DNA from: Lutibacter sp.
Lineage (GTDB): Bacteria; Bacteroidota; Bacteroidia; Flavobacteriales; Flavobacteriaceae
DNA: 64,000 nt
Direction of reading: 5' to 3'
NCBI GenBank assembly: GCA_002733665.1
Contig: NVWM01000001.1
Span: forward strand, 1 to 64,000
Shown here: positions 2,440 to 18,327 of the stretch, one piece after another
How the letters are laid out: each line of letters opens with the position of its first letter
How positions within the stretch are numbered: the stretch's first letter is position 1
Position numbers and translations under genes: made by a program
Notes under the pieces: model-generated
The model's database searches: none
Told to the model about the DNA's origin: nothing
The model's input: only the letters and a program-made list of their open reading frames with translations

Positions 2440-2499
2440 CAAAAACAAGTGTGAGATTTAGATAAAAATGAAGTATGTTTTTTATCAATTTAATAAAAA

Positions 2500-2805
2500 A
2501 GCAGATCTATAAGCCGGATTCTGTATTCCGATAAATCGGAACTCTTATCATTTATCTAGACTATTAATTACTCAATAGTTCTAACTGCCTACCCTTTGAA
2601 ATCGAGCGAGTACTCTCAAACTCCAATTTACATGGCATTGCACCGCATAGAGTTTACCTGGTTTCACTACAGCATTACCTGTACATACTTTCTGCTGCAC
2701 TTGTCCTCTTCCGATAAATCGGAATGACGGATGTTATCCGCTATGCTACTCTTTGGTGTCCGGACTTTCCTTTCCGAGTATATCGGAACGATAAGACGAT
2801 CTGCT
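2500..2805 (-). ncRNA. rnpB: RNase P RNA, bacterial type A
   Basis: This is the catalytic RNA that removes tRNA 5' leaders. On the minus strand the 5' end GCAGATC pairs with the 3' end AGATCTGC. The P4 half GGAAAGTCCGGAC (about 2755-2775) and the 3' signature AGAATCCGGCTTATAGAT (about 2505-2523) are diagnostic. The conserved stretch ending in a GGTAAAC-like segment lies between them. A consensus promoter ends just before the 5' end. An identical 16-nt hairpin (TTCCGATAAATCGGAA) occurs twice inside the RNA and a variant occurs a third time, which is unusual. The ends are approximate to a few nucleotides. Confidence 0.95.
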
Positions 2806-2809
2806 TTTG

Positions 2810-6878: not shown

Positions 6879-9218
6879 TCAGCCTATAATTTTAAGTTTT
6901 GCAAATTGAAGTAATAGTTTTTTTGCTCCATGCTCTAAAAATAGTATTGTTGCTTTTTTATTCGCTCCTATTCCTTCTAAAGCCTTTACTTCTCCTTTGC
7001 CAAAGCGTTGATGCTGAACTATATTTCCAACAGTTATCTTACTGTCAAACAGGTTCGTAGTTGTTGAAATTGTTGCCTTAGAAACTTTTTTTAAATTCTT
7101 TGGAGCAGTAAATTTTGGTTGAATTTTCTTCGGGCTTTGTTTTGGTTTTGGAAAATTACCTCTAGAAATCGGTTTTTTAAATCGAATGGTACTTTGTGGA
7201 ACATCGCTAAAAATATCTTCTGAAATGAATTTATTTTGCTGTGCTTCAGGTTTTCTTCTCAAATATTCTAAATATTGCTCATCAATTTCTTCCAAGAAAC
7301 GACTTGGTTCACAATCAATTAGTTTTCCCCAACGATAGCGAGATTCTGCATAACTCAAATATGCTTCTTTCTCTGCACGTGTCAATGCAACATAAAATAG
7401 ACGACGTTCTTCCTCCAATTCACTACGTGTATTCATACTCATGGCAGATGGAAAGAGTGTTTCTTCTAAACCAACAATATAAACATACGGAAACTCCAAT
7501 CCTTTTGAAAGGTGAATTGTCATCAAAGAAACTCTTGGTTCGTCATCTTTTTGATCGCTATCAAAATCTGTAGCTAGCGCAACATCTTCAAGGAAAAATG
7601 CCAACGAAGCATCTTCTTCTTTTTCTTTTTGATTGATAATGAAATCTTTAATTCCGTTCATCAATTCTTGAACGTTTTCAACTCTACTTACTGCTTCAGG
7701 AGTTCCGTCTCCTTCTAAATCTTTAATAATTCTTGTTTGGCGGATAACCAAATTGGCAACTTCAAACGCATCTTGTTTTTCAGCTTCAATCTGAAAACGC
7801 TGCATCATTGTTGCAAAGTTATTCAGTTTTGTTTTTGTTCCAGAATTAATTTTAATATCAACTAAGTGTAAATTCTGAACAATCTCAAAAATCGATTTTC
7901 CGTAATGATTTGCAGCAACTATTAATTTATCAATCGTAGTTGCACCAATACCTCTCGCAGGATAATTTATCACACGCTTAAGTGCCTCTTCATCATTTGG
8001 ATTGATTAACAAGCGTAAATAACCCAAAATATCTTTAATCTCTTTTCGTTGATAAAATGAAAGCCCTCCAAACATTCTATACTTAATATCTTTTTTACGC
8101 AATGCATCTTCAATAGCTCTAGATTGTGCATTTGTACGGTATAAAACAGCAAAGTTATCGTTGGTTAATTGCTTGTTCATTGCATTTTCAAAAATAGAAT
8201 CCGCAACAAAGCGTCCTTCTTCTCCATCAGAAAAAGTACGCATTACTTTTATTTTTGAACCATCATCATTTGCCGTCCAAACCTCTTTATCGAGTTTAGT
8301 TTTGTTCTTTTCAATAATACTATTCGCCGCTTTAACGATATTACTTGACGAACGATAATTTTGTTCTAATTTGAATATTTTTACTGCGTCATAATCCTTC
8401 TGGAAATTCAAGATGTTTTGGATATTTGCGCCACGAAAAGCATAAATACTTTGAGAGTCATCACCAACAACACAAATATTTTGAAAACGATCTGCCAACG
8501 CACGTACAATCAAATATTGTGAGTGATTTGTATCTTGATACTCATCAACCAAAATATATCTAAAACGATCTTGATATTTTGCCAACACCTCTGGAAAACG
8601 AGTTAGCAACTCGTTGGTTCTCAATAGTAAGTCATCAAAATCCATTGCTCCTGCTTTAAAACAACGTTCTACATATTGTTTGTAAATATCTCCCATTTTT
8701 GGGCGACTTGCCATCTTATCGGCTTCTATCAATTCTGGATTTTGATAATATGCTTTTACAGTTATTAAACTGTTTTTAAACTGTGAAATGCGCCCAAGAA
8801 CACGTTTTGGTTTGTACTTTTCTTTATCCAATTGCATTTCCTTAATTATCGAAGAAAGTAATCGAACAGAATCTTGGGTGTCATAAATCGTGAAATTTGA
8901 GGGGAACCCTAAATGATGCCCTTCGGAACGCAAAATTCTTGCAAAAACGGAATGAAAAGTTCCCATCCATAAGTTTTTCGCTTCACTATTACCAACAACT
9001 GTTGCGATACGCTTTTTCATCTCTTTAGCCGCCTTATTAGTAAAGGTCAATGAAAGAATGTTAAAAGCATCTACACCTTGATTCATCAAATGAGCAATTC
9101 TATAGGTAAGTACACGCGTCTTTCCAGAACCTGCTCCTGCAATGATGATCATTGGTCCGTCTTTATGCAAAACGGCTGCTTTTTGTGGTTCGTTAAGTTC
9201 GTTTAAGTAATTTGACAA
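6879..9218 (-). CDS. UvrD/PcrA-family ATP-dependent DNA helicase
   Basis: This is a superfamily 1A 3'-5' helicase for DNA repair and replication-conflict resolution. It is 779 residues long. Walker A is GAGSGKTR (about 27-34). TFTNKAAKEMKKR, the DEYQDTNHSQY Walker B region, VVGDDSQSIYAFRGA, QNYRSSSNI and the late motif VSLMTIHLSKGLEFPYVYI are all in order. The C-terminal tail (about 650-779) is basic and ends in the PcrA-like segment GNIVQHQRFGKGEV. It is more like PcrA/UvrD than Rep; assigning one symbol would need phylogeny. It has its own promoter and appears complete. Confidence 0.93.
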   Translation of the reverse strand: MSNYLNELNEPQKAAVLHKDGPMIIIAGAGSGKTRVLTYRIAHLMNQGVDAFNILSLTFTNKAAKEMKKRIATVVGNSEAKNLWMGTFHSVFARILRSEGHHLGFPSNFTIYDTQDSVRLLSSIIKEMQLDKEKYKPKRVLGRISQFKNSLITVKAYYQNPELIEADKMASRPKMGDIYKQYVERCFKAGAMDFDDLLLRTNELLTRFPEVLAKYQDRFRYILVDEYQDTNHSQYLIVRALADRFQNICVVGDDSQSIYAFRGANIQNILNFQKDYDAVKIFKLEQNYRSSSNIVKAANSIIEKNKTKLDKEVWTANDDGSKIKVMRTFSDGEEGRFVADSIFENAMNKQLTNDNFAVLYRTNAQSRAIEDALRKKDIKYRMFGGLSFYQRKEIKDILGYLRLLINPNDEEALKRVINYPARGIGATTIDKLIVAANHYGKSIFEIVQNLHLVDIKINSGTKTKLNNFATMMQRFQIEAEKQDAFEVANLVIRQTRIIKDLEGDGTPEAVSRVENVQELMNGIKDFIINQKEKEEDASLAFFLEDVALATDFDSDQKDDEPRVSLMTIHLSKGLEFPYVYIVGLEETLFPSAMSMNTRSELEEERRLFYVALTRAEKEAYLSYAESRYRWGKLIDCEPSRFLEEIDEQYLEYLRRKPEAQQNKFISEDIFSDVPQSTIRFKKPISRGNFPKPKQSPKKIQPKFTAPKNLKKVSKATISTTTNLFDSKITVGNIVQHQRFGKGEVKALEGIGANKKATILFLEHGAKKLLLQFAKLKIIG

Positions 9219-10929: not shown

Positions 10930-11451
10930 ATGAATTTTACAAAAATTATAGAAATACTGTCATATACTATTCCGTCAATCATAACTGGAGCGGTAGCATA
11001 TTACTTCTTTTCATCACAATTTAAAGAAGAAGTGAATCGCAAGAATTTTAAATTATTGCGAGAAGACAAAAAACAACTACTTGAAGCAAGATTGCAAGCA
11101 TACGAACGCATGACGTTGTTTATGGAGCGTATAAATCCTGCTAAACTATTGGTTCGTGTGACTCCTACTGATGAAAACAAAGAACTTTATATGCACAAAT
11201 TAGTGCAAAGTGTAGAACAAGAATTTGAGCATAATTTGGCACAGCAAATCTATATCTCTGAAGAATGTTGGAGCGTGTTAATCACATCAAAAAACGCTAC
11301 GACACATATCATCAAAAAAACAGCAGAAGATACTTCTCTTAGTTCTTCACAAGAATTGAGAGAGGCAATTTTGCAACGTATGATTGATGGAAATCCTCCT
11401 TCAAATACTGGGTTAACGTTTATAAAAGAAGAAGTTAAAAAGATGTTTTAG
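10930..11451 (+). CDS. Hypothetical membrane-anchored protein
   Basis: I do not recognise a named family. The 173-residue protein has one N-terminal hydrophobic segment (about 10-28, YTIPSIITGAVAYYFF). A charged, helical cytoplasmic region follows, with RKNFKLLREDKKQLLEARLQAYERM (about 40-63) likely forming a coiled coil. No catalytic motif is apparent. It stands alone, divergent from the FadL-type gene and upstream of the small peptide genes, with a palindromic repeat between. A structural or scaffold role is possible but not shown. Confidence 0.7.
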   Translation: MNFTKIIEILSYTIPSIITGAVAYYFFSSQFKEEVNRKNFKLLREDKKQLLEARLQAYERMTLFMERINPAKLLVRVTPTDENKELYMHKLVQSVEQEFEHNLAQQIYISEECWSVLITSKNATTHIIKKTAEDTSLSSSQELREAILQRMIDGNPPSNTGLTFIKEEVKKMF

Positions 11452-11460
11452 ATACGCAAT

Positions 11461-11544
11461 GTCATTGCGATTCGCCAAAGGCGGAGAAGCAATCTGACTA
11501 TCAATAATGAGATTGCCGCGTTCATTCTTCACTCGCAAAGACGA
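11461..11544. repeat. Intergenic palindromic repeat, GTCATTGCGA type
   Basis: The segment begins GTCATTGCGATTCGCC, has an inner pair AGCAATCTGA / GAGATTGCCGCG, and ends CTCGCAAAGACG. Its outer ends are complementary, so it can fold into a long imperfect hairpin. It is noncoding and begins 10 nt after the stop of the preceding gene. Confidence 0.65.
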
Positions 11545-11602
11545 ATTAAAAGATTTTTAATTTTTTTTTTGTATTATTGCAACCCTAACTAAAATAATTA
11601 CA

Positions 11603-11770
11603 ATGAACAAACAAACAAACAAACAAACAAACAAACAAACAAACAGTAAGAAAACATGGAGTACACCTAAGGTTGTAGATCTAGATATGAAAAATACAAA
11701 ATCAGGGAGTTATCCTTTAAGTAGTGAATCCATTTTCCCTAATGATTTTGCTTATGCATCTTCTTCTTAG
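11603..11770 (+). CDS. Putative lasso-peptide-like (paeninodin-type) RiPP precursor 1
   Basis: This 55-residue peptide contains the leader pattern W19-xx-P22-x-V24-xx-L27-xxxx-T32. Its spacing is the same as in paeninodin-class lasso leaders, which have Tyr at the first position. If cleavage follows K33, the core starts SGSYPLSSE, with Thr at -2 and Glu at core position 9, as needed for a nine-residue macrolactam ring. The core ends in three serines; paeninodin is phosphorylated on its C-terminal Ser. Codons 2-14 are ten AACA units encoding NKQT repeats. No cyclase, leader peptidase or recognition-element gene is in the window, so maturation would act in trans. RiPP nature is inferred, and the chemistry could be of another class. 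Confidence 0.65.
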   Translation: MNKQTNKQTNKQTNSKKTWSTPKVVDLDMKNTKSGSYPLSSESIFPNDFAYASSS

Positions 11771-11926
11771 TATAGTTGTGAGGTGAATTTATTGTTTTAA
11801 AAATACTTTTTATATAAATTTATATATCGTTCAGAACACTATCTTTGCTGTTCAGAATAAAAGTAAATATCTGTTCTTTTTTTTACACTTTTTTTTGTAT
11901 TATTGCACTCTAATTTTAAAAAAAAA

Positions 11927-12067
11927 ATGAACAAACCAATACAAAAAAAGAAAACATGGACTGCACCAGAAGTTGTAGATCTTAATGTAAATAATACTAG
12001 TTCAGGGAGTGCACCTTATCCTTTTGAAAGTGTTTATTCATATTTTAGTGCCTCAGCTTCTTCTTAG
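11927..12067 (+). CDS. Putative lasso-peptide-like RiPP precursor 2
   Basis: This 46-residue paralogue of the preceding peptide shares the block KKTW-x-xP-x-VVDL (residues 8-19) and NT-x-SGS (23-28). The leader pattern is W11-P14-V16-L19-T24. The predicted core starts SGSAPYPFE, again with Thr at -2 and Glu at position 9, and ends in two serines. It lacks the AACA repeat found in copy 1. Both genes share an upstream block (T-run then GTATTATTGCA, containing the near-consensus -7 TATTATTG), so they arose by tandem duplication including the promoter. The leader and ring positions are conserved while the rest of the core differs, as expected for a RiPP family. Confidence 0.68.
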   Translation: MNKPIQKKKTWTAPEVVDLNVNNTSSGSAPYPFESVYSYFSASASS

Positions 12068-12116: not shown

Positions 12117-12142
12117 AAAATCCCGCTTTTAGCGGGATTTTA
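12117..12142. terminator. Bidirectional terminator between peptide genes and btuB
   Basis: AAAATCCCGC and GCGGGATTTT form a strong GC stem with A/T-rich flanks on both sides. It sits between the convergent peptide gene and btuB and can serve both. Confidence 0.9.
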
Positions 12143-12161: not shown

Positions 12162-14090
12162 CTAAAAATTTAGTTTCAATCCCACTCTAAAGTTTCTTCC
12201 TTTGGTTGAGAACCCTAATGTATCTTCATAATCTTCATTGAACATATTATTCAACGAACCAAAAAGTACCATATGACTTCCTAAGTGATGGTTTACACTT
12301 AAATCTACCAAACTATAAGAATCAATCACAACATTTTCTCCAGCCGCACCAAAAGAGCCATATTGGTCGAAATAGGTTCTTTCTCCAACATTCTTAAAAT
12401 TCAAAGAAACAAATGTACGTTCTAATGGCTTTACTGATATGTTCGCATTTATTTTGTGTTTTGGTATATAATCAAAATCAGCACTTTTATTTGTGTATGT
12501 ATGTGCCAATGTAACCGTTACTTTATCAATAGGTTTTATACTTACAACCGTTTCAACACCTTTTGCATTGGTTGTATATGCTGCATTTCTATAGGTTATA
12601 AAGTCTGGTAAAACAATTGCGTTATCTTCTTCTCTATAAAAGAATACTGCACTTGCATCTAACCATTTTTTATACGAAGTTTCAAGCCCAAACTCAATTG
12701 TTGAATTCTCTTCTGGATCTAAATCCGTATTTCCATAAACTGAGAATAATTGATACGTACTTGGTGCAATAAAGGCTGTTGAATAAGATGCCAATGCTTT
12801 TAACTTAAAATCATCGCTTGATTTTAAGTTATACGATGGATTCACGTGATATACTAAGTGATTTCCATATTCACTATGATTATTTAATCTCAATCCTGCA
12901 TTTAAATTGAACTTGTTGCGAATATATACAACACTTGCAAAAGGGTCAATAGTTGTATAATTTGCCAAATCATTATCAATATTACCAAAAGGAGTAGTAG
13001 TCTGATTGTCAAAGTCTTGGTAATTAACACCTGTAATTATATGTACATTTTCAGAGAAATTATATTTGTTGATGATTTCTGCAAATAAACTTTTTCCCTC
13101 ATATAAATAATTGTCAACTGAATCAGAAAAACCATTGTAACTATCAAATCCTCTTTCAACATCACTTAAAGAAACAGTACCTATCATTTCTCCTTTGTTG
13201 TATTTAAAATTTGATTTAAAACCTACTCTCAATTGATTTTCAAAACCATTATTAATTTCTGAATCAAAATATGCGCCTCCATCATAATCATATTCATATT
13301 TATTATAATCACCAAATAACTCAAAATTCAATTTTTCAGTTGCTTGATAAGATAATTTCAGCATAGAATTGTTACTTTGAAAAGCATCTTTTTCAAATGG
13401 TGTAGCAGCATTTTTATCATTGGCAGAAGACATACCATCTACAGACGACATACTGAAATTTGCCAAATATGAAAACTTATCTAAAGTTCCTCTCACTCCC
13501 ACGCTTTGATTGAGTTCGTCAAGATTTGTCTTACGATTTCTTTGCGTATCGTTAGTTCCGACACTTGCCATATAATTGAAAGAAATAGGTGTATTTGATG
13601 CTTTTTTTAATTTGATGTTAATCACACCATTTGCAGCACCAGAACCATATAATGTACTTGATGAACCTTTTAAAATTTCTATTGATTCTACTTGGTTTAA
13701 ATCCAATAAATTCAAGTTATAACTAGAAGAAATTCCCGTAGGATCGGTTACTAAAACACCGTCAATCACAACTGCAACTTGGCGATTACGTCCTCCACGG
13801 AAGTACAATCCAACATTAGATCCAGAAGCATTGTTGTTTCCGTTTACTTCAACTCCAGCAATATTATCAAGCAAGTCAATTACTGTTTTTCCTGTATTTT
13901 GCTTAATTTCTTTAGAAGTAATCTTATAAATTACTTTTCCTGAGTTTTCTTTTTTTAACTCAAATTTTGTGTCAGAAAGGACAACTTCATCAAGTTGTTC
14001 AATTTCTTTTTGATTTTCTTGTGCAAACGCAACACTTGCAGTTGTTAATAGTAGCGCCAAAGCACTTAATTTAATACTGATTTTTTTCAT
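12162..14090 (-). CDS. btuB: TonB-dependent vitamin B12 receptor (BtuB-like)
   Basis: This outer-membrane beta-barrel would import cobalamin with energy from TonB. The 642-residue protein has a signal peptide (about 1-23) and a TonB-box-like segment QLDEVVLSDT (about 32-41). The plug domain follows, with VIDGVLVTDPTGISS and SIEILKGSSSTLYGSGAANGVINI. The barrel ends in FRVGLKLNF with a terminal Phe, as outer-membrane insertion requires. Substrate assignment comes mainly from the cobalamin riboswitch directly upstream and the divergent BtuF-like gene. It is complete and convergent with the small peptide genes. Confidence 0.9.
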   Translation of the reverse strand: MKKISIKLSALALLLTTASVAFAQENQKEIEQLDEVVLSDTKFELKKENSGKVIYKITSKEIKQNTGKTVIDLLDNIAGVEVNGNNNASGSNVGLYFRGGRNRQVAVVIDGVLVTDPTGISSSYNLNLLDLNQVESIEILKGSSSTLYGSGAANGVINIKLKKASNTPISFNYMASVGTNDTQRNRKTNLDELNQSVGVRGTLDKFSYLANFSMSSVDGMSSANDKNAATPFEKDAFQSNNSMLKLSYQATEKLNFELFGDYNKYEYDYDGGAYFDSEINNGFENQLRVGFKSNFKYNKGEMIGTVSLSDVERGFDSYNGFSDSVDNYLYEGKSLFAEIINKYNFSENVHIITGVNYQDFDNQTTTPFGNIDNDLANYTTIDPFASVVYIRNKFNLNAGLRLNNHSEYGNHLVYHVNPSYNLKSSDDFKLKALASYSTAFIAPSTYQLFSVYGNTDLDPEENSTIEFGLETSYKKWLDASAVFFYREEDNAIVLPDFITYRNAAYTTNAKGVETVVSIKPIDKVTVTLAHTYTNKSADFDYIPKHKINANISVKPLERTFVSLNFKNVGERTYFDQYGSFGAAGENVVIDSYSLVDLSVNHHLGSHMVLFGSLNNMFNEDYEDTLGFSTKGRNFRVGLKLNF

Positions 14091-14184
14091 TTTATAGATT
14101 TAATTCGATTAAATCAGGTAAAAATTTGGGAATAGAAACGATCTATACCAAACCTTTCTTCCCGAAAGTTTGTTATTCAATGAT

Positions 14185-14345
14185 TATGGCAGGTCTCCTG
14201 ACTTGTGTCTTGCTACTTAACCTTCCCGTATTAACAGTGGTTTTTAGATTGGTAACAAGCGTTCCAAAAATTTAGGAACTAAACTTACAGTTGCGGGAAC
14301 AGTCTTGGATTTAAACCAAGTTCCCTTTTAATTTCGATTCTATTG
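14185..14345 (-). promoter_or_regulatory. Cobalamin riboswitch controlling btuB
   Basis: On the minus strand the element contains GGGAAC near its 5' end, the core TTCCCGCAACTGTAAG, a CACTGTTAATACGGGAAGG stem, and the B12 box AGTCAGGAGACCTGCC at its 3' end (14188-14203). These are the conserved elements of the adenosylcobalamin riboswitch class. About 95 nt separate it from the btuB start. That stretch contains a CAAACTTTC / GAAAGGTTTG hairpin without a T-run, which points to control of translation initiation over termination. B12 binding is expected to turn btuB off. Confidence 0.96.
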
Positions 14346-14372
14346 TTATAGAATTGAAAACCAAATTCGCGA

Positions 14373-14399
14373 CAAATGTATATATCTTTTTAACATCAA
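14373..14399 (-). promoter_or_regulatory. Promoter of the btuB riboswitch transcript
   Basis: The minus-strand -7 box TACATTTG (14373-14380) lies about 28 nt before the first conserved riboswitch element. A TTG is present 16 nt further upstream (14397-14399), slightly short of ideal spacing. Confidence 0.5.
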
Positions 14400-14452: not shown

Positions 14453-15589
14453 ATGAAAATAACAAAATACACTCTTTTCTTTATTCCTTTTTTATTACTA
14501 TCATCTTGTAAGGCTGATGTAAAAAAAGCGGCTTCATCACATGCATTTAAAACTTCAATTAAGTACGCACAAGGATTTGAAATTGAAGAATTTACAAATT
14601 ACAAAAAATTAATTATAAATTCGCCTTACAAAGATTCAAAACAGCCGTTAGAATATATTCTTACCTCTAAAAATACGGACGTTTCACAGTTCTCTTCAAC
14701 AGATAAAATTATTCAAATTCCGATTAAAAATATCGTTGTAACGAGCACTACTCACATTCCTATGTTGGAATTACTTGAAGTTGAGCATACATTGATTGGT
14801 TTTCCGAACACAAAATATGTTTCTTCTGAAAAAACACGTGAACTCATTGATACAGGAAAAATCAAAGAATTAGGAATGGATGCCAATTTAAATACGGAGG
14901 TTTTAATAGACCTAAATCCATCTGTTGTTATTGGTTTTTCTGTAAACGGAAGTAATAAATCGCTCACAACTGTTGAAAATACTGGAATTCCTGTAATTTA
15001 TAATGGCGATTGGCTTGAAGAAACACCTTTAGGAAGAGCAGAATGGATTCGGTTTTTCGGAATATTATTTGACAAAGAACAAAAAGCAGATTCAATATTC
15101 AAAAACATTGAAAATCAATACAATACTGCTAAAGAAATTGCATCCAAAGCAAAAAGTCAACCTACAGTTTTATCAGGAGCACTATTTAAAGATGTTTGGA
15201 ATCTTCCTGCTGGAGAAAGTTTTGTAGCACAGTTTCTAAACGATGCAAATACAAACTATCTATGGAAAGGCACCAAAGGAAAAGGGAGTTTACAATTGAA
15301 TTTTGAAAATGTACTAGACAAGGCGCAAAATGCAGATTTATGGCTTGCTCCAGGATACTTTTCAAGCAAAGAGCAGATGACACAAGCAAGTGAACATTAT
15401 AAACAATTTGATGCTTTTAACAATGGAGATGTTTATACATTTGCCAATAAAAAAGGAGAAACTGGAGGCGTAATTTACTATGAATTGGCCCCTACTCGAC
15501 CGGATTTAGTCTTAAAAGATATTATAAAGATTACACATCCAGAGTTGTTAACCAATTATGAATTAGTATTTTTTGAAAAAATGGAGTAA
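14453..15589 (+). CDS. BtuF-like periplasmic-binding lipoprotein (B12/siderophore ABC transporter)
   Basis: This would be the substrate-binding component of an ABC importer of the BtuF/FepB class. The 378-residue protein has a lipoprotein signal ending LLLSSCKA (Cys19). It has the two-lobe binding-protein pattern: VVTSTTHIPMLELLEVEHTLIG (about 100), IDLNPSVVIGFSVNG (about 155) and IPVIYNGDWLEETPLGRAEWIRFFG (about 180-204), the last typical of this family. It is divergent from btuB across the riboswitch. It is not itself under the riboswitch, which faces the other way. Permease and ATPase genes are not in the window. Context favours cobalamin as substrate. Confidence 0.85.
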   Translation: MKITKYTLFFIPFLLLSSCKADVKKAASSHAFKTSIKYAQGFEIEEFTNYKKLIINSPYKDSKQPLEYILTSKNTDVSQFSSTDKIIQIPIKNIVVTSTTHIPMLELLEVEHTLIGFPNTKYVSSEKTRELIDTGKIKELGMDANLNTEVLIDLNPSVVIGFSVNGSNKSLTTVENTGIPVIYNGDWLEETPLGRAEWIRFFGILFDKEQKADSIFKNIENQYNTAKEIASKAKSQPTVLSGALFKDVWNLPAGESFVAQFLNDANTNYLWKGTKGKGSLQLNFENVLDKAQNADLWLAPGYFSSKEQMTQASEHYKQFDAFNNGDVYTFANKKGETGGVIYYELAPTRPDLVLKDIIKITHPELLTNYELVFFEKME

Positions 15590-17784: not shown

Positions 17785-18327
17785 TCATAAATCAATCTCT
17801 AAAATAGTTTGGTCTTCTTGATAATTTCTAGCTGAACTATATTTCCAATCTATTGGATCGGTAACAAAACCACTCTCAACAGGATTATTATGTATATAAT
17901 CTATTTTCTGTTGTATTACCTTTTCACTCCACAATTCAATCGGTTTATTATGTTGTTGCCAAAACTGACGTTGCTGAACATTACTTTTCTTTTTTCCTGC
18001 TCGTTCCATCATCCATAATAACCATTCTTTTCTACTTTCTTGTGGATTTTCTTCTATTGTTTTAATTAACTTTCTTGCTGTAAAACCTTTGAAATCTCTG
18101 ATCAATCCTGAAGGGTCTTCATTTGCTGACCTGAAAATTAAATGCACATGACTTGGCATAAAACAATACGCAAATACTTCCATTCCTTTTTCTTTTCTGC
18201 AATATTCTAGACTCTCTTCTAATACATTAAAATATACTTGCCGAGTGAAAACATCTAACCAATACACGGTAGCAAAACTTATAAAGTATGCTCCTTGCTT
18301 GTTATGAAATTTATATTTTCTACTCAT
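17785..18327 (-). CDS. REP-associated tyrosine transposase (RAYT, Y1_Tnp family)
   Basis: RAYT proteins are single-strand DNA transposases related to IS200/IS605 TnpA that act on REP hairpins. The 180-residue protein has the HUH motif H60-V-H62 in FMPSHVHLIF. The likely catalytic Tyr is Tyr144 in KIDYIHNNPVESG, a signature of this family. The N-terminal GAYFISFATVYWLDVFTR is also typical. The gene is intact and lies between exact inverted REP repeats. Such genes are usually domesticated and seldom mobile, so activity is uncertain. Confidence 0.95.
   Translation of the reverse strand: MSRKYKFHNKQGAYFISFATVYWLDVFTRQVYFNVLEESLEYCRKEKGMEVFAYCFMPSHVHLIFRSANEDPSGLIRDFKGFTARKLIKTIEENPQESRKEWLLWMMERAGKKKSNVQQRQFWQQHNKPIELWSEKVIQQKIDYIHNNPVESGFVTDPIDWKYSSARNYQEDQTILEIDL

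Follow-up and report, generated by a model that had tools for sequence, protein, structure and literature searches.

The closest described systems are the paeninodin-type lasso clusters (PadeA/K/B1/B2/C; pseudomycoidin, with PsmN). The genes analysed here, located in a 64-kb stretch of DNA ("the window"), share with them a WxxP leader with W at -15, T at -2, an acidic ring residue and a C-terminal Ser, together with a split B1/B2 pair, an HPr-kinase-like K, a nucleotidyltransferase-like N and an ABC exporter. The two differ in host, which is here a member of the Bacteroidota, whereas PMC13381572 calls paeninodins restricted to Bacillota, and in the precursors, which fall below the NCBIfam cut-off for PadeA in the five copies tested. 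Furthermore, four intact precursors are located here on contigs other than that of the cluster, sulfotransferase and MBOAT genes are present, and one leader contains a repeat tract.

The prochlorosin precursor genes (procA) are likewise dispersed and display a similar pattern of leader and core. In this family of lanthipeptides from picocyanobacteria (ProcA/ProcM), one promiscuous enzyme also serves many precursors (PMC10783134); however, its chemistry and proteins are unrelated, and the window genes are not members. Regarding lasso peptides, PMC13381572 states that a cluster may encode several precursors whose leader motifs are identical and whose cores diverge. One machinery, like leaders and different cores are also found here, but the copies are spread over four contigs, and for four of them no lasso enzyme was found nearby. 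In the citrulassins, a required gene is placed elsewhere in the genome as described in PMC12971885, although the unclustered gene there is a tailoring deiminase, whereas here the precursors themselves are unclustered. From such descriptions, lasso clusters with several precursors and lasso tailoring genes outside the cluster are already known. In the literature searched, in which few subscription journals are covered, neither orphan lasso precursors that are dispersed and variable in their cores (the available text of PMC13352647 included) nor a lasso leader containing a frameshifting repeat were found described, and no paper was found that connects MBOAT proteins with lasso peptides. Judged from sequence, the two window genes, W1 and W2, are probably (probability about 0.8) paeninodin-like lasso precursors that one cluster of the same genome matures in trans.

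Window precursors and the proposed maturation cluster

The window corresponds to contig C35 of a 2.71-Mb genome in 37 contigs (92.5% complete, 0.47% contamination). The features at the precursor site are as follows.

10930..11451, + strand: DUF7935 gene, left neighbour, common to relatives, outside the system
11572..11579, + strand: -7-like element TATTATTG, 31 nt 5' of the W1 start
11603..11770, + strand: W1, lasso-type precursor, ATG start, 55 aa; leader ...KKTWSTPKVVDLDMKNTK
within 11603..11770, + strand: W1 core, SGSYPLSSE-SIFPNDFAYASSS, with Glu9
11898..11905, + strand: -7-like element TATTATTG, 29 nt 5' of the W2 start
11927..12067, + strand: W2, lasso-type precursor, 46 aa from ATG; leader MNKPIQKKKTWTAPEVVDLNVNNTS
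within 11927..12067, + strand: W2 core, SGSAPYPFE-SVYSYFSASASS, with Glu9
12120..12141, no strand assigned: inverted-repeat, terminator-like hairpin ATCCCGCTttTAGCGGGAT, recognised by eye and shared with the empty spacer of the nearest relative
12162..14090, - strand: TonB-dependent receptor, right neighbour, common to relatives, outside the system, with a cobalamin riboswitch upstream

The -7-like elements resemble the Bacteroidota -7 consensus, TAnnTTTG. W2 appears in the list of open reading frames as a product of 54 aa, extended to a TTG at 11903. Both genes share the leader K-K-T-W-x-x-P-x-V-V-D-L...N-T-x followed by the core start SGS; W occupies leader position -15, T position -2 and Glu position 9 of the core, and W1 ends in SSS and W2 in SS. 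A tblastn search of the 64-kb window (E <= 1e-3) with 16 lasso-cluster query proteins, nine from this genome and seven from a second cluster, detected no homologue of a lasso enzyme.

The original prediction had described two small genes with a common W-xx-P-x-V leader, T and SGS, Glu at exactly core position 9, two to three terminal serines and no maturation genes nearby, all of which agrees with these results, the last point for the window. It had also placed the B and C proteins elsewhere in the genome. There, one cluster, on contig C18, was found to hold the PqqD-like recognition element (B1), the leader peptidase (B2) and the cyclase (C). The B2 gene gives the single match in the genome to the Transglut_core3 family (lasso B2), and one of the seven Asn_synthase matches in the genome adjoins it. 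Coordinates in this cluster are given in the numbering of locus L002.

L002 7633-7782: precursor A1
L002 about 7885-8027: precursor A2, frame broken between start and W
L002 8086-9513: MBOAT acyltransferase
L002 9522-10430: 302-aa protein, no Pfam match
L002 10523 or, more likely, ATG 10559, to 11392: HPr-kinase-like K
L002 11392-12276: sulfotransferase
L002 12288-12551: PqqD-type B1
L002 12559-12972: B2
L002 13014-14843: C, Asn-synthetase-like cyclase
L002 14843-15781: nucleotidyltransferase-like N
L002 15791-17491: ABC transporter

B2 scores 51 bits with PF13471 (cut-off 26) and 49.4 bits with the lasso family NF033537 (cut-off 33). B1 reaches 63.2 bits with PF05402 (cut-off 23.4), and its best NCBIfam match is the lasso family NF033536 at 66.8, below the cut-off of 80. 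The cyclase matches PF00733 (55.8) and PF13537 (53.4), both over their cut-offs, the glutaminase-like N domain being present; its best NCBIfam match is the lasso cyclase NF033535 with 172 bits, below the cut-off of 525. K matches HPr_kinase_C with E 1.7e-6 and 28.2 bits, below the Pfam cut-off of 33.3, and by eye contains H, GQSGAGKS and DD, corresponding to the motif of His, P-loop Lys and two Asp given in PMC10368454. The 302-aa protein shares 18% identity (E 0.048) with its counterpart in genome G590, and its predicted structure, with a mean pLDDT of 35, was discarded; that this neighbour of the MBOAT gene product is SGNH-like is a guess.

By analogy with the work on paeninodin and BsfA (PMC5067487, PMC9266682, PMC10368454, PMC13381572), maturation may be pictured as follows. 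W1 and W2 would each be transcribed from their own small promoter, and the W-xx-P-x-V motif of the leader would be bound by the stand-alone PqqD-type B1 from C18; W-15 in the WxxP motif is described as the main determinant of RRE binding in paeninodin-type systems (PMC13381572). The C-terminal Ser would be phosphorylated by the HPr-kinase-like enzyme, and the remark of the original prediction that paeninodin carries a phosphate on this residue is matched by a kinase of that type in the C18 cluster. The B2 peptidase would cleave the leader after T-x, the Asn-synthetase-like C would join the Ser1 amine to Glu9, forming a nine-residue ring around the tail, and the product would be exported by the ABC transporter. 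Further groups would probably be added by the sulfotransferase, nucleotidyltransferase-like and MBOAT proteins. Each orphan gene would present a different core to the same machine, which would serve scattered genes alike in their leaders and very different in their cores, and the frameshifting tetranucleotide tract of W1 may turn production on and off. Directly observed are the sequences, the cluster, the copies outside C18, their conserved positions, the empty site in the relative and the repeat tract; promoters, enzymatic steps, export and switching belong to the model. As for the role of the peptides, competition or surface interaction is a guess.

Precursor copies in the genome and their site in relatives

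W2 as a lone query matches eight places in the genome including itself, the other seven with E-values from 1.9e-8 (W1) to 0.005, and two of these seven sit in the C18 lasso cluster. The copies are distributed over four contigs: W1 and W2 on C35; A1, A2, C18:29514 and C18:33950 on C18; and one each on C11 and C6. A profile built from all eight detected no ninth copy in the genome at E <= 0.01; it recovers the own-genome copies by construction, and those E-values are not evidence. The original prediction had proposed looking for similar W..P.V peptides throughout the genome, and seven further places were found with the W2 query. Its two-product RiPP locus is thus retained as regards RiPP precursors and abandoned as a stand-alone two-product locus, the window genes being two of eight copies.

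The precursors of the C18 cluster carry the same leader as the window genes. The C11 copy is located between a helicase gene and a prolyl oligopeptidase gene, and the C6 copy is flanked by a DNA polymerase III delta'-type gene and pgk; no lasso-enzyme homologues were found by tblastn in 19 kb around either. On its contig, the C6 copy is separated from either end by more than 70 kb. For the window pair, the distance to the start of contig C35 is just 11.6 kb, which, with the contigs unordered, weighs against reading it as dispersed.

T(-2), Glu9 and the C-terminal Ser are kept in all eight copies. In the own genome, neither finding that the original prediction had named as refuting it, a missing cyclase and peptidase or copies devoid of T(-2) and Glu9, was encountered. 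W is at -15 in each of the seven copies readable in frame, A2 being left out as its W lies in another frame, and the RRE-binding motif [Y/W]xxPx[L/V/I/A/F/Y] from PMC13381572 is present in the same seven leaders. Within the core, where PMC10368454 gives 7-9 as the range for the Asp/Glu, position 2 is Gly in 7/8 and position 1 is Ser in 6/8. The first residue had been regarded as less usual when Ser; here it is the norm, and PMC12670498 appears to count Ser among the usual first core residues. Mean identity between copies is 61% in leader positions -12..-1, 9% at core 3-8 and 15% at core 10-16. The probability of Glu9 in all eight by chance is 2e-11 when residues are shuffled within each core, a calculation that ignores shared descent. 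A constant leader, a variable core and a fixed ring residue are what selection for lasso maturation would predict, unlike plain descent. The likeness to the paeninodin type, also part of the original prediction, stands in these respects and does not extend to the NCBIfam paeninodin precursor family NF033524, whose cut-off of 27 bits was not reached by the five copies tested (W2 12.6, C11 16.1 and C6 16.2 bits; no match for W1 and A1).

The history of the window site can be followed in relatives. The DUF7935 gene is present in 14/14 genomes of the genus, and by this gene the nearest relative is G011 (94-95% identity). Between DUF7935 and the TonB receptor, G011 has a spacer of 54 bp, empty but with the same hairpin, against 717 bp with both precursors here. 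In 8 of the 13 relatives both neighbours are kept, separated by 48-219 bp without a precursor; in three, no such receptor was found in the stretch compared, and in two the only receptor is more diverged and oriented the other way. The simplest reading is that the precursor pair was gained in this lineage. Precursor matches at E <= 0.01 occur in two of the 14 genus genomes, the present one and G011 (82% complete), and B2 in one of the 14.

It is unlikely, although this is the alternative with most in its favour, that the dispersed copies are remnants duplicated out of the cluster, which are no longer expressed or matured, the C18 precursor alone being used. Five of the eight copies are intact (W1, W2, A1, C11 and C6), four of them on contigs other than C18. 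The other three look broken: A2 has a frameshift near W, which may stem from misassembly of a run of G; C18:29514, directly behind the ABC gene, has a stop before W; and C18:33950, about 4.4 kb behind the ABC gene, is without an ATG at the usual place. Since three of eight copies look decayed, the precursor set may be on its way out. G011 points in the same direction, as it retains one copy with two stops, by eye at the site of C18:33950, and gives no B2 match. Yet W1, W2, C11 and C6 have kept open frames, Glu9, T-2 and the C-terminal Ser despite 9% identity at core 3-8. Moreover, -7-like elements are found 26-37 nt upstream of W1, W2, A1, A2 and C11, and none was found in the upstream regions examined of C6 and C18:33950.

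It is most improbable that the peptides are guided by an RRE but remain linear, as in the linear polyphosphorylated peptides (LPPs) of Bacillota, with another role for Glu9. LPP leaders possess a [Y/W]xxPx[V/L] motif and LPPs undergo HprK-type phosphorylation (PMC13381572), but according to the same source their clusters are without a macrolactam cyclase, which C18 has, and their leaders are described as YxxP, whereas these are WxxP; the acidic residue at exactly position 9 in 8/8 copies also argues against it. Chance ORFs, or another small-peptide family such as PqqA, are scarcely credible and were rejected, as the weak PqqA Pfam match of W2 (E 0.13) spans leader residues 10-21 only and lies below the cut-off, and W2 alone finds its seven genome relatives, two of them in the lasso cluster.

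Other elements of the window were also considered. A cobalamin riboswitch (14171-14380, - strand) precedes the TonB receptor, a Peripla_BP_2 protein is encoded at 14453-15589, and together the three resemble a locus for B12 uptake. That the window peptides have a role connected with B12 was rejected, as the receptor adjoins the DUF7935 gene in 8/13 congeners without a precursor. The REP-like stretch at 11455-11548, upstream of W1, was rejected as a dispersal mechanism, no second copy being found at E <= 1e-3 in 138.5 kb of the genome. A Y1_Tnp transposase gene is located at 17785-18327 (- strand), and an ordinary class A RNase P RNA at 2494-2807 (- strand).

Repeat tracts and putative tailoring enzymes

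Four tandem repeats were detected at the lasso loci.

11606..11645 (window), + strand: (AACA)10 tandem repeat, candidate phase-variation tract, right after the ATG and inside the W1 leader
L002 10527-10559: (AC)16.5, abutting the likely ATG of K
L002 17664-17684: (AAAC)5.2, upstream of the decayed C18:29514
L018 2895-2913: (ATT)6.3, at the stop of the decayed C18:33950

The (AACA)10 tract lies within the interval of the original prediction and had been overlooked there. With fixed thresholds, four repeats of 2-7-nt units exceed the threshold in the 498.5 kb of this genome examined, each of them either at a lasso precursor or immediately before the lasso kinase gene, and they are the only repeats above threshold in the 138.5 kb around these loci. 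The control stretches (360 kb) contain one T18 run and no 2-7-nt repeat. As it was the surroundings of lasso loci that made up the near set, support for an enrichment comes from where the repeats lie inside that set and from the empty control. Computed translations of W1 with nine or eleven AACA units give peptides of 23 and 16 residues that end before the core, and with seven, ten or thirteen units the frame is kept. Gain or loss of one unit thus truncates W1 before the core, which suggests phase variation of W1 through (AACA)10.

A wider picture can be offered tentatively, and is more doubtful than probable: a dispersed, phase-variable lasso repertoire, in which orphan precursors would be matured by one cluster, slipped-strand repeats would switch or tune precursors and kinase in the manner of surface-antigen contingency loci, the products would be phosphorylated, sulfated and O-acylated, and cells of one population would export different peptide sets.

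Regarding the kinase, the C-terminal Ser, its target in paeninodin (PMC9266682), fits all eight copies. Ser3, the target in BsfA (PMC10368454), does not fit because core position 3 varies. Sulfotransferase genes in lasso clusters were rejected as new, since PMC4289311 (2014) and PMC8498205 (2021) mention them, with a role described as unclear. Homologues of both K and the sulfotransferase occur in the clusters of G479, G531 and G561, the latter enzyme being 63, 36 and 37% identical, respectively. The G479 lasso cluster (L051 8458-11293) is adjoined by a CysD-like gene and a CysN/APS-kinase fusion for sulfate activation. Locus L058 has CysD- and APS-kinase-like stretches near its C gene, recognised by eye, and no sulfotransferase match. 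An APS kinase is encoded on contig C13 of the own genome, so PAPS can probably be made.

In G590 (L174 2-4245), K is followed by the sulfotransferase, an MBOAT gene (42% identical) and an SGNH-like ORF, and then, on the opposite strand, by a precursor-like ORF and a leader-like ORF. Among the best 80 of 537 C-homologue loci, which include several from one chromosome, B1 matches are present in 58 and B2 matches in 47, K in 66, and K with the sulfotransferase in 26 (E <= 1e-5); an MBOAT match was found in none of these 80. Sulfation and acylation of the products are plausible from this gene content. Five of the best 80 loci (L061, L067, L068, L084 and L087) belong to a gammaproteobacterial chromosome (MAG), OY282353.1, which may for this reason hold several lasso clusters.

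Distribution and biological meaning

In a family sample of 397 genomes, the eight-copy profile gave no match at E <= 0.001 in the other 396, and PF13471 occurs in three of the 397, two over the cut-off. Precursor and B2 counts at class level were treated as one sample of 395 genomes, since sample size and genome labels coincide; seven of these have precursor matches at E <= 0.01. Seventeen genomes have B2 over the cut-off, and they include all five with precursor matches at E <= 0.001 (own, G479, G531, G561 and G590) and neither of the weak-match genomes G577 and G660. The chance of this overlap is 8e-8, or 2e-6 without the own genome, assuming independent genomes, which they are not; as G531, G561 and G590 are of one genus, these are three genera and not five independent cases.

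Inspected by eye, the precursors of the other Bacteroidota mostly place their acidic residue at core position 8 or 9, and not all of them keep T(-2), as G590:C113 has V there; G561:C83 is a poor fit. A regular-expression scan of 88 loci gave evident chance matches and did not enter the counts. In G479, G531, G561 and G590, 10 of 11 precursor matches adjoin other lasso genes, and orphan copies are therefore not general; the sole exception is the G531:C16 precursor, with no lasso genes within its 14.8 kb stretch. Copies away from the cluster are accordingly shown mainly for the own genome.

Lasso genome mining generally begins from the B and C genes and seeks precursors beside them. Orphan precursors such as W1 and W2 would therefore be missed. 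How much core variation one B1/B2/C set tolerates could naturally be tested on the family described here, in which the leader is constant, the core variable and the ring residue invariant; this family also places paeninodin-like (WxxP) leaders in Bacteroidota. With a frameshifting repeat in the leader of a precursor, phase-variable natural products would have a simple origin that can be tested directly.
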